The notes beneath the pieces are model-generated. The model searched no databases. It saw nothing but the letters and a program-made list of their open reading frames with translations, and had not been told where the DNA came from. A stretch of 35,300 bases of DNA from Thermoleophilia bacterium (GTDB taxonomy: Bacteria; Actinomycetota; Thermoleophilia; BMS3ABIN01). The stretch lies in assembly GCA_014859345.1 (NCBI GenBank), contig JACUUL010000020.1:1-35300 (forward strand), written 5' to 3'. The position numbers and the translations under genes were made by a program. Shown piece after piece: positions 22,264-26,853 of this stretch (positions are counted from its first letter, which is position 1; every line of letters begins with the position of its first letter).

Positions 22264-24198
22264 TCACGCAATGCGTTTCTTGATGTCGGAAAGCAGATAA
22301 AGCGAGCCCGTGACCAGGATAACATCCCGGATGGAGGCCAGCTTGAAAGCGCTCTCCAGTGCTGACTGGTTTTCCCTGGCCACGAAAGTCTGAACGTGGC
22401 TTTCCTTGACTACCGGCAGCTTTGACAGCTCCTGCGCCGAGGCACAGCGAGGATTGGAGTTCTCAGTGATAAATAAGATATCACAAAAATCCAGAAGGCG
22501 TTCCAGCATTTTCGCCGCGTCCTTGTCTTTCAGGATCGAGACGACACAGATGGTCCGCCTGGCCCGGACGATGCCGGCCAGCGAATTGAGAAGCTCCTCG
22601 ATGCTGGCCGGATTATGGGCGCCGTCAAGAATAACCATGGGCTTCTCGGATATAACCTCCAGGCGGGCGGGAATCTTGATTTTTGGAAGAGTCCGCCTGA
22701 GCTTCTTCTCACCGAGAGGGCGGGCCAGAAACAGCTCTGCCGCCTGGATCGCCACGGCGCAGTTGGTGCGCTGATACTGGCCGAACAGGGTCAGGGAAAG
22801 ATCGGAATATTGCCCCTTTTCCGTCCAGACATCGAATTTTTCACCACTTCCCCTGATCAGGGAGAAGTTGTCCCCGAATGTGAGCGTCCTCGCGTGCTTG
22901 CGCCTGCAGATCTTCATAATCTCATCCAGTGCCTCATCGGAAAGAGCTCCCAGCACCACTCTTCCCTTTTCGGGGATGACCGCGGCTTTTTCGCGGGCGA
23001 TTTCTGCCAACGTCTCTCCCAGGATGTCGGTGTGCTCCAGAATGACGTTGGTGATCACCTGAATCCTGGATTCGGTGACGTTGGTTGCATCGTACCGGCC
23101 GCCCAGGCCTGCCTCGATCACGGCCACCTCCACCTGCTGCTGCTGAAAATAAAGAAACGCGGCCGCCGTCAGAATCTCAAACTGGGTGAGCGGTCCGCTG
23201 CTGCGGGACCGCGAATCAACCTCCGCGGCCGTATCGCTGACCTCGGTAATGAGCTTTTCAAAGGCCCTGTCGGTGATCTCCCTGCCGCCAACCAGGTATC
23301 TCTCCGTGAAGCCGACCAGGTGCGGGGAGAGATATGTTCCGGCTTTGACGCCATGGGCAGTGAGGATCTCCGAGAGCATGCGGGCGGTCGAAGACTTGCC
23401 GTTGGAGCCCACAACGTGGATTACTGCCAGCTTCTTTTCCGGACTGCCTAGCGCCTTGAGCAATTTCCGGACGCGGGTGAGCCCGGGCTTCATGCCCAGC
23501 CGGTCCAGGTCTTCAAGGTATTTGAGCACGTCGAAGGACGGCCGCGCCTTCTCCTCGACCGCGGGCGCGGCTCTTACTGCCGGCTTCTTTTCAGACGGCC
23601 GGGCTGGTGCGCCCTTTTCAGGCTTTGGTTTCCTGGCCGCCGGGGCCTTTTCCGGCTTTTTCTTCTTCGCGGGCTTCGCCCGGGCGGGGCGGGCGGCGGC
23701 AACTTTGCCTGGCCTGGCCGCAGGGGCTTTTTTGGGTTTTGTTACTGTCTTCTTGGGTTTAGCGGCAGTCTTCTTGGGCTTGGCCGGGGGCTTTTTTGGC
23801 CGCGCGACAGTTTTTTTGCGTTTGGGGGCTGCCTTTTTGGTGACGGCCTTTTTCGGCTTGGCCCTGGCTGCCTTCCCGGCCTTGGCGGCTGTGGCCTTGG
23901 GCCGGGCGGCAGCTCTCTTTCTTCCGGCTTTAACCGCGACAGCTTTCTTTTTCGGCCTGGTGCCAGACTTTTTTGTCTTTACCGCAGGGGTCCTGGCCCT
24001 GGGGGCTTTTTTCGGCCTGGCTGCAGCCGTTTTCCTGACGGCTCCCTTTTTTGCCGGCTTCTTCGCCGGCTTGGATTTGGCAGCCGCTTTTGAGGGCTTC
24101 GCCGTGGGTATTGTCCTGGGTTTTGGCTTCTCCCGACCGGTCCCTACGGCTTTCTCAACTGGGCCGCTTCTCTTTTTTTTGGCGGTTTTTTTTGCCAT
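22264..24198 (-). CDS. folC: Folylpolyglutamate synthase FolC with a histone-H1-like N-terminal tail
   Basis: FolC adds glutamates to folates (and, in bifunctional forms, makes dihydrofolate). The enzyme part (about 221-644, 424 residues, normal size) has the P-loop G264-S-N-G-K-S-S270, the IEAGLGGRYDATN and LEHTDILG segments, a K in AREKAAVI and the C-domain VILDGAHNPAS. In front lies a 220-residue low-complexity tail made of Lys, Ala, Pro, Arg and Thr with repeated P-K-K-T/A units, like the C-termini of histone H1 or mycobacterial HupB. The frame is open throughout, the ATG at 24198 abuts the valS stop, and no ATG, GTG or TTG in a suitable place just before the FolC domain offers a shorter start. 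I conclude the tail is translated; its role is unknown. Confidence 0.9.
   Translation of the reverse strand: MAKKTAKKKRSGPVEKAVGTGREKPKPRTIPTAKPSKAAAKSKPAKKPAKKGAVRKTAAARPKKAPRARTPAVKTKKSGTRPKKKAVAVKAGRKRAAARPKATAAKAGKAARAKPKKAVTKKAAPKRKKTVARPKKPPAKPKKTAAKPKKTVTKPKKAPAARPGKVAAARPARAKPAKKKKPEKAPAARKPKPEKGAPARPSEKKPAVRAAPAVEEKARPSFDVLKYLEDLDRLGMKPGLTRVRKLLKALGSPEKKLAVIHVVGSNGKSSTARMLSEILTAHGVKAGTYLSPHLVGFTERYLVGGREITDRAFEKLITEVSDTAAEVDSRSRSSGPLTQFEILTAAAFLYFQQQQVEVAVIEAGLGGRYDATNVTESRIQVITNVILEHTDILGETLAEIAREKAAVIPEKGRVVLGALSDEALDEIMKICRRKHARTLTFGDNFSLIRGSGEKFDVWTEKGQYSDLSLTLFGQYQRTNCAVAIQAAELFLARPLGEKKLRRTLPKIKIPARLEVISEKPMVILDGAHNPASIEELLNSLAGIVRARRTICVVSILKDKDAAKMLERLLDFCDILFITENSNPRCASAQELSKLPVVKESHVQTFVARENQSALESAFKLASIRDVILVTGSLYLLSDIKKRIA
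23539..24198 (-). repeat. Low-complexity region encoding the Lys/Ala/Pro tail of FolC
   Basis: The first 220 codons of folC form an imperfect repeat region. Units such as K-P-K-K-T, R-P-K-K-A and A-K-P-K-K recur, most densely at residues 113-160. The DNA is A/G-rich on the coding strand, so reading the other strand gives a long spurious Phe/Gly/Ala-rich frame. Confidence 0.8.
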
Positions 24199-26853
24199 CT
24201 ACTGTCCGAAGTATCTCTCGTACTGTGTGTTTAACTCGCTCAACTCTCGCTGATGCAGCTCAATTTTGGCCCTTTCCCGTTCCACCAGCTCCGGAGGAGC
24301 CTTGCTGACAAAGTTTTTATTTGCCAATTTTCCCGACGCGCGGGCAAGTTCCTGCTTTTTTCTGGAAATTACCTGCATGAGACGCGTTTTTTCCTGATCG
24401 ATATCTATAAGACCGGCCAGGGGCACCAGCAGCTTTCCTCCCGGGATCAGGGCCACGGCGGTCTGCGCCAGCGACGCCGCGACATCACTCTCGGTTGCGG
24501 CAGTTTCCACCAGGCTCGTGTTGGCCAGTGACCTCAACAGGATGGAGCCTTGCTCCAAAACCTGCCGCACACCCGGATCGGCCGAAACCAGAATCGCGTC
24601 TGCTTCTTTTCTGGGAGAAACCCTGAGCTCGTTGCGAAGCGTTCTCAGAGCGGTCACCGCCTCCATCAGCTGTTGCATCTTTGCCTCCGCAGCCGGCTCG
24701 GTGTACCCCTCTGCATCCGGATACGGCATATTGATCAGAAAGCCGCGCTCCCCGGGCAACATGGCGGCGATCTCTTCGGTAAGGAACGGCATGAACGGGT
24801 GCAGCATTCTCAGGATGTTGTCCAGCAGATAAAACAGATGGGCCGATACCTCCCGCTTTACCGCTTCATCCTCCCCATATAAACGCACCTTGGCTATTTC
24901 CACGTACCAGTCGCAAAACTCGTTCCATACGAAGCGGTAGAGCTGTTTGGTGGCTTCCGCAAATTCATAGCGGTCCAGCAGACGATTGACCTCCGCTGCG
25001 GTCGCCGTCAGCCGGCTTTCGATCCAGCGGTCTGCCAGAGCTTCCCGCGCCGGAGCAGGCTCGATATCCTCCGCGCCCAGCAGCACGAACCTGGCCGCGT
25101 TGAAAATCTTGTTGCAGAAATTGCGGCTCATCTCGATCCGCTCTTCTGAGAAACGCACATCCTGGGTGCTGGCCATGTTCAGCAGGCCGTAGCGGGTTGC
25201 GTCAGCGCCGTAGTTGCCTATGAGCTCGAGCGGGTCGACACCGGTGCCGAGGGACTTGCTCATACGGCGGCCGTCCTTGGCCATGATGGTGGGATTGATG
25301 ATCACGTCCCTGAAGGGTATCTCGGAGGGAAATTCCATCCCCATCATCACCATGCGGGCCACCCAAAGGAAGATGATGTCCCTGGCGGTTACCAGCACGT
25401 CCGTGGGATAAAACCTCTCCAGCCTCTCCGTTGACTCCGGCCAGCCTAGCGTTGCAAAAGGCCATAGCGCCGAGCTGAACCACGTGTCCAGGACGTCCTC
25501 CTCCTGCCTGAGCTCATATGATCCGCATCTGCACGCAGCCGGCTGTTCCTCGCGAACGACGATCTCATCGCAATCGTCACAGTACCAGACAGGCAGGCGG
25601 TGTCCCCACCATAGCTGGCGGGATATGCACCAGGGCCGGATGGCGCGCATCCATTCCAGATAAACATCTGCCCAGCGCCCCGGGTTAAACCTGATGGCTC
25701 CCTCTGCCACCACGCGAATGGCGGGCAGGGCCAGCTCATCCATCCTCATGAACCATTGCAGGGATATATACGGCTCGATGGCTGTGTTGCAGCGGTAGCA
25801 GACGCTGACCGCGTGACGGTAGGGCTCAATTTTCTCCACCAGGCCTTCCTGCTCCAGCCGTTTCACCACCTGGCCGCGGGCCTGGTCGATGCTCATGCCG
25901 GCGAACTCCCCTCCAGCCTGGCTTATGCGCCCATCGGAGGTAAAGACATTCACCTCTTCGAGCTCATGTTTCTTGCCAAGCTCAAAATCGTTGGGATCGT
26001 GGGCGGGCGTTACCTTAAGAGCGCCCGTGCCGAAGCTCATGTCGACATATTCATCCGCGATAAGCGGGATCTCCCGGCCCACCAGGGGCAGAATGACCTG
26101 TTTGCCGACATGCTCGCGGTAGCGTTCATCATCAGGATTAACGGCAACGGCGGTATCACCCAGCATCGTTTCCGGACGGGCTGTGGCGATGATTACCGCG
26201 GCATCTTCCCCTTTTACCGGGTAACGCAGGTAATAGAGGTTGTCGTCGCACTCGATGTGCTCCACCTCGAGATCGGAAAGCGCGGTGTGACAGCGGGTGC
26301 ACCAGTTGACCATGTATTCATCACGAAAAATATAGCCCTTCTCATAAAGGGCCACGAAAACCCGGTAAACAGCCTTCACGTAGCCCTCGTCGAGGGTGAA
26401 TCGCTCTCCCTCGTAATCCAGGGCGCAGCCAAGACGTTTGAACTGGCTGATGATGGCTGAGCCGTACTGGTCGCGCCACCTCCACACCCGCTCCTCGAAC
26501 CCGTCCCGACCCAGATCCTGCCGGGTGAGCCCTTCGGCGGCTATCTGCTTCTCCACCTGGTTCTGGGTGGCGATTCCGGCGTGGTCGGTGCCGCATATCC
26601 AGAGTGTGTTCTCGCCCCGCATGTGGTGCAGGCGGATGAGCAGGTCCTGGATTGTGCCGTTCAGCGCGTGGCCCATGTGCAGCGAGCCGGTGACATTGGG
26701 CGGAGGAACCGCGATACAGTAAGTTTTCTTTTGCTGGCCGGTTTCCGGGGAAAAAAGGTTTGCCGCCAACCATCGCTCCATCCACTTCGATTCGATATCG
26801 GCCGGCGAGTAGCGGGTCTTTTCTTCGAGAATTTTACGAAATTCGGTATTCAC
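24199..26853 (-). CDS. valS: Valyl-tRNA synthetase
   Basis: ValS charges tRNA-Val and edits mischarged threonine. Class I motifs are present: H59-M-G-H62 (HIGH) after PPNVTGSL, and R530-M-S-K-S534 (KMSKS). The editing domain lies between (with ATARPETMLGDTAVAVNP near 223-240), and two CxxC pairs near 424 and 441 look like a zinc knuckle. The C-terminal 65 residues form the coiled-coil arm. Length is 884 residues, as expected. The start is GTG at 26853 without a ribosome binding site; a 7-base inverted repeat ends one base upstream. The stop touches the folC ATG, and valS-folC is a common pair. Confidence 0.97.
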   Translation of the reverse strand: MNTEFRKILEEKTRYSPADIESKWMERWLAANLFSPETGQQKKTYCIAVPPPNVTGSLHMGHALNGTIQDLLIRLHHMRGENTLWICGTDHAGIATQNQVEKQIAAEGLTRQDLGRDGFEERVWRWRDQYGSAIISQFKRLGCALDYEGERFTLDEGYVKAVYRVFVALYEKGYIFRDEYMVNWCTRCHTALSDLEVEHIECDDNLYYLRYPVKGEDAAVIIATARPETMLGDTAVAVNPDDERYREHVGKQVILPLVGREIPLIADEYVDMSFGTGALKVTPAHDPNDFELGKKHELEEVNVFTSDGRISQAGGEFAGMSIDQARGQVVKRLEQEGLVEKIEPYRHAVSVCYRCNTAIEPYISLQWFMRMDELALPAIRVVAEGAIRFNPGRWADVYLEWMRAIRPWCISRQLWWGHRLPVWYCDDCDEIVVREEQPAACRCGSYELRQEEDVLDTWFSSALWPFATLGWPESTERLERFYPTDVLVTARDIIFLWVARMVMMGMEFPSEIPFRDVIINPTIMAKDGRRMSKSLGTGVDPLELIGNYGADATRYGLLNMASTQDVRFSEERIEMSRNFCNKIFNAARFVLLGAEDIEPAPAREALADRWIESRLTATAAEVNRLLDRYEFAEATKQLYRFVWNEFCDWYVEIAKVRLYGEDEAVKREVSAHLFYLLDNILRMLHPFMPFLTEEIAAMLPGERGFLINMPYPDAEGYTEPAAEAKMQQLMEAVTALRTLRNELRVSPRKEADAILVSADPGVRQVLEQGSILLRSLANTSLVETAATESDVAASLAQTAVALIPGGKLLVPLAGLIDIDQEKTRLMQVISRKKQELARASGKLANKNFVSKAPPELVERERAKIELHQRELSELNTQYERYFGQ

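Follow-up and report, generated by a model that had tools for sequence, protein, structure and literature searches.

Why would a folate enzyme carry a tail resembling histone H1? The question is raised by folC, which lies on the minus strand of a 35,300-nucleotide stretch of DNA from a Thermoleophilia bacterium (the window, by which we mean that whole stretch). To our knowledge, the bacterial proteins with H1-like tails are ones whose work already involves DNA or storage granules, and we know of no business that FolC has on DNA. In the literature searched (without most subscription journals), neither an earlier description of a FolC with such a tail nor a paper combining FolC, dihydrofolate synthase and lysine-rich was found. 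The features of the locus are as follows.

22264-24198, minus strand: folC open reading frame, 644 residues, ATG start, no internal stop
23545..24198, minus strand: Lys/Ala/Pro/Arg-rich N-terminal tail of FolC, codons 1-218 (from the translation, the composition, the AlphaFold model and six species of genus g6)
22264..23544, minus strand: FolC enzyme (dihydrofolate/folylpolyglutamate synthase), codons 219-644 and the stop codon
24196..24198, minus strand: ATG start of folC, directly after the valS stop
23527..23529, minus strand: in-frame GTG at codon 224, a weak internal start that is not conserved
24199..26853, minus strand: valS, upstream of folC, with its stop codon TAG at 24199-24201

The sequence-only reading had described an H1-like N-terminal tail rich in Lys, Ala, Pro and Arg on FolC, and this description holds for the first 218 codons, which are followed by an intact FolC (TIGR01499). 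Residues 1-218 consist of 28% Lys, 25% Ala, 15% Pro, 9% Arg, 6% Thr and 6% Val; there are seven acidic residues and the net charge is +75. The core of the AlphaFold model is mostly confident, but the pLDDT stays below 50 from residue 1 to residue 238, and the tail is predicted to be intrinsically disordered. Predicted disorder, a Lys/Ala/Pro-rich composition and a high net positive charge are features that it has in common with the H1-like tails of HupB, AlgP and PhaF. Dense stretches of Lys/Arg with Ala/Pro were found in seven of the 1474 non-overlapping open reading frames of at least 100 residues (in 1.63 of the 2.08 Mb of the genome), and the FolC stretch, at 227 residues, is the longest of the seven. 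Used by itself as a protein query, the tail retrieved only its own sequence and chance-level matches, probably because low-complexity matches are discounted.

The enzyme that follows the tail begins at approximately residues 219-240. The NCBIfam folC model TIGR01499 matches residues 240-642 with 350.9 bits (cut-off 162.65) and is spanned from position 1 to 399 of 400, as in a full-length FolC. Pfam at E <= 0.001 gives only the two Mur-ligase domains, Mur_ligase_M and Mur_ligase_C, with neither a match to HC2 (PF07382) nor an HU DNA-binding domain. The P-loop and ligase motifs (GSNGKSS, GLGGRYDATN, LEHTDILG and DGAHNP) are intact and are common to the family, except for a Thr-to-Ser change in the P-loop (window positions 23389-23409), which reads GSNGKSS here and GTNGKSS in all other family members read. 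Relatives of known structure are the FolC/FPGS proteins with PDB entries 1fgs, 1o5z and 1w78, with which the window's FolC shares the whole enzyme domain and its motifs; the best-matched solved chains, at 402-487 residues, are too short for a tail such as the one described here.

One rival explanation of the tail is that it is an artefact or is untranslated, owing to a frameshift, a misjoined contig or a true start near residue 224. The frame had been described as intact, and indeed no stop codon interrupts 22264-24198 on the minus strand and the same architecture is present in six other species. The open frame by itself says little: when the bases of the tail were shuffled 2000 times, 50 of the shuffled sequences were stop-free too. 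It is the conservation in seven species that decides. As reported previously, folC starts directly after valS: the ATG (24196-24198) abuts the TAG (24199-24201) without a gap. A comparison of the valS-folC junctions shows that every one of the seven tailed species begins folC at the valS stop or next to it. The g6 species use ATG or GTG, except for two with an upstream TTG or a CTG. The further claim that there is no shorter plausible start was nearly right. A GTG does exist at codon 224, the only in-frame ATG, GTG or TTG between the folC ATG and the FolC fold, and the FolC of tail-less relatives begins close to this codon; however, it has no Shine-Dalgarno-like sequence at the usual distance before it, and the codon aligned with it in the g6 genes is neither ATG, GTG nor TTG. 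The same fusion in six other assemblies and a pattern of substitutions that favours a protein reading of the tail (described below) also stand against an artefact. The sequence-only reading had allowed for a frameshift or for translation beginning near residue 221; both are very unlikely, and we give an artefact of any kind hardly any weight. A read-through fusion of valS and folC was considered as well, because the two genes are in the same frame across the TAG-ATG junction in the window's genome; the frames differ in relatives, so such a fusion is not conserved and was rejected.

To place the tail among relatives, we denote by g1-g7 the genera of one bacterial family, with the window's genome (G000) in g1, and by f5 a neighbouring family. 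FolC was searched for in 99 relatives and the best loci were then read. The same fusion of tail and FolC is present in all six readable g6 species (L008, L010, L012, L014, L016 and L022); in a seventh g6 genome (L024) folC is cut by a contig end, and it was left out. The g6 tails are about 180-260 residues long with a charge of about +57 to +77 when taken from the likely start, and 193-259 residues with a charge of +58 to +80 when counted from the preceding stop. FolC was also read in 11 species of g2, g3, g4, g5 and g7 and at 11 folC loci of f5, and it has no such tail in any of them. The concern that relatives might lack the tail is borne out for other genera, but not the frameshift that was coupled to it, as seven species share the fusion; the tail-less FolC of the other genera reflects gain or loss of a genuine feature. 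In a wider search, which gave alignment extents only, FolC matches from many high-GC genomes run on into the tail region, in some cases across stop codons, and these matches are not distinguishable from chance. A separate search for related loci returned only distant FolC of the Acidobacteria type. The match at L051 reached into the tail, but on inspection this locus has accD upstream of folC and lacks a tail.

In a tree of the FolC core the window's protein groups with those of g2, g4 and g5 and not with g6, with weak deep support. Given this placement, the tail would be either ancestral in the whole family, with several losses, or gained twice. The FolC of g3 (L009, L011 and L020) has a basic, proline-rich N-terminus of approximately 30 residues, ATRNKSLRRILAPRPSF, which starts ATRNK; two g6 tails start ATRKK, and the underlying DNA is similar. 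This short extension could be a remnant of the tail or its starting point.

Two pairs of close species show how the tail changes. Between L008 and L014 the amino-acid identity is 82% in the tail and 97% in the core, with dN/dS values of 0.56 and 0.11, respectively; between L010 and L012 the identities are 72% and 95% and the dN/dS values 0.15 and 0.08. Insertions and deletions in the tails of close pairs are of whole codons and amount to 19-28 gap columns. Single-base replacements that remain within Lys, Arg, Ala, Pro, Thr, Val, Ser and Gly number 28 of 35 in the first pair (p = 0.02) and 14 of 16 in the second (p = 0.04), both above the prediction from mutation alone, although these tests of selection are modest, depend on the alignment and come from two close pairs. 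The substitution patterns agree with a tail that is translated and is maintained for its composition rather than its exact sequence.

The main rival to a functional tail is a weakly constrained compositional expansion, in which slippage in Lys/Ala/Pro codons would have lengthened a short basic N-terminus that is tolerated as soluble and disordered sequence with no dedicated partner. The fast turnover of sequence and length, with its many gap columns between close species, fits such an expansion, as do two short DNA repeats within the window's tail and the short extension in g3, from which the tail may have grown or to which it may have shrunk. On the other hand, a high charge and a length of at least about 180 residues are kept in all seven species, the dN/dS of the tail is below 1, the window's tail has just a few weak tandem repeats, and similar tails occur on other metabolic enzymes of the same species. 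We consider this explanation a possible one, but on the whole unlikely.

FolC is not the only tailed protein of these bacteria, which also encode a free-standing H1-like protein. The corresponding loci are the following.

L094:14469-14720 (end of contig C39) and L175:1-213 (start of contig C121): free-standing H1-like gene of the window's genome, split across two contig ends
L036, L037, L038, L039 and L043: free-standing H1-like gene in g6
L150:10905-12104 (G000), L041 (G013) and L044 (G009): Ino1 (inositol-3-phosphate synthase) with a C-terminal tail
L047:1342-3177 (G005): SerA (phosphoglycerate dehydrogenase) with an N-terminal tail

The free-standing gene comprises about 120-180 codons, matches Pfam HC2 (PF07382; histone H1-like) and, in g1 as in g6, is located upstream of a gene for a nitroreductase; L036 scores 50.9 bits and L038 55.5 bits (cut-off 40). 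At the loci read from g3 and g7 it is absent from this position. That g1 and g6 have the gene at a common position speaks for an ancestral set with losses. HC2 is similar in composition to the FolC tail; it is, however, a whole small protein, whereas the tail is an N-terminal extension that gives no Pfam HC2 match. We also considered whether the FolC tail is a recent copy of the free-standing gene. This is not supported, as the patterns of basic pairs differ: the measure of adjacent basic residues is about 0.5-0.6 in the free protein and 0.05-0.33 in the FolC tails.

Read directly, Ino1 has a C-terminal Lys/Ala/Pro tail of approximately 30-50 residues in G000, G009 and G013, and SerA has an N-terminal Lys/Ala/Ser tail of approximately 65 residues in G005; both are shorter than the FolC tail. 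The Ino1 is of the mycothiol type, with TIGR03450 as the best match, below the cut-off of that model. Alignment extents, which are an indirect indication, suggest an Ino1 tail in g1, six of the seven g6 genomes and g2, and a tail on SerA in g1, g2, g4 and every g6 genome.

These tails bear on a role specific to FolC, in which the tail would steer the acidic substrate or hold the growing polyglutamate chain of the folate. The product of FolC is itself a polyanion, which makes such a role conceivable. Ino1 and SerA, however, have similar tails and make no polyanionic chain, and the tail is absent from the FolC of five sister genera. With tails on three unrelated enzymes and a free H1-like gene, a general tether to polyanions is the likelier reading, and we judge a polyglutamate-linked role quite improbable.

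The reading that we prefer, with moderate confidence, is that the polycationic, disordered tail tethers FolC to a cellular polyanion, most likely a nucleic acid and next polyphosphate. By analogy with other tailed proteins, a disordered polycation fused to an otherwise normal FolC would dock the enzyme by charge; nucleoid DNA or RNA would be the most likely partner, with polyphosphate next, and localization of the enzyme would be what selection keeps. The recurrence of the tail, its conserved charge, the H1-like gene and the tails of SerA and Ino1 count in favour of a tether. Against it, the residue-by-residue conservation of the tail is poor and most other genera of the family do without it.

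The closest parallels are tails on other folded domains. The actinobacterial HU proteins HupB and HupS combine a folded domain with a long Lys/Ala/Pro-rich, H1-like tail of PAKK/KAAK type, and in HupB this tail is required for nucleoid binding (PMC5676037). Their tail is C-terminal and is attached to a DNA-binding HU domain, whereas that of FolC is N-terminal and is attached to a folate enzyme. In Pseudomonas, AlgP and PhaF contain about 150-200 residues of Lys/Ala/Pro-rich disordered sequence, as in the FolC tail, and the net charge of AlgP is +55, compared with about +57 to +77 for the FolC tails; through their KPAA tails the two proteins bind DNA or position granules of polyphosphate and PHA (PMC9239181). 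In these proteins, however, the repeats are regular and C-terminal and the proteins are granule-associated (PMC9239181), whereas FolC is a biosynthetic enzyme. Placement on the nucleoid or on a granule by means of the tail is described for AlgP and PhaF (PMC9239181) and would be carried over to FolC by analogy. Topoisomerase I (TopA) gains processivity on DNA from lysine repeats, which in Streptomyces are found in DNA-binding proteins (PMC7398561). Actinobacterial topoisomerase I, Ku and HrdB resemble FolC in having a lysine-repeat tail on an enzyme but, unlike FolC, already act on DNA (PMC7398561). The FolC tail would be a functional counterpart of the tails of HupB, AlgP and PhaF, but it does not belong to their families.

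A variant of the tether would have the tail put FolC at polyphosphate granules or in condensates and not on DNA. AlgP, whose tail is similar, belongs to polyphosphate granules, and polyphosphate forms condensates with polycations (PMC9239181); against this, a crude motif search of 1.63 of the 2.08 Mb of the genome gave no convincing polyphosphate kinase, which does not prove its absence. We regard this variant as rather improbable. A broader form of the tether, in which the tails of FolC, SerA and Ino1 together with the free H1-like protein would gather enzymes on the nucleoid or another polyanion and the chromosome would serve as a scaffold for metabolism, with lysine modification of the tails as a possible switch, is doubtful. 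If charge-based tethering does operate, it would place ordinary metabolism (one-carbon, serine and inositol enzymes) within the cell, and the tailed and tail-less orthologues form a natural set for a direct test of what the tails do.

Some minor observations concern other proteins and the opposite strand. The alpha subunit of the electron transfer flavoprotein (EtfA) of the window's genome (L090:8949-10196) has a basic, Lys/Arg/Pro-rich N-terminus of approximately 50 residues, and cationic stretches are present in RpsB and IF2. Opposite the FolC tail, the plus strand of the window contains an antisense open frame of 355 codons (23186-24253), which is probably a by-product of the codon make-up of the tail.
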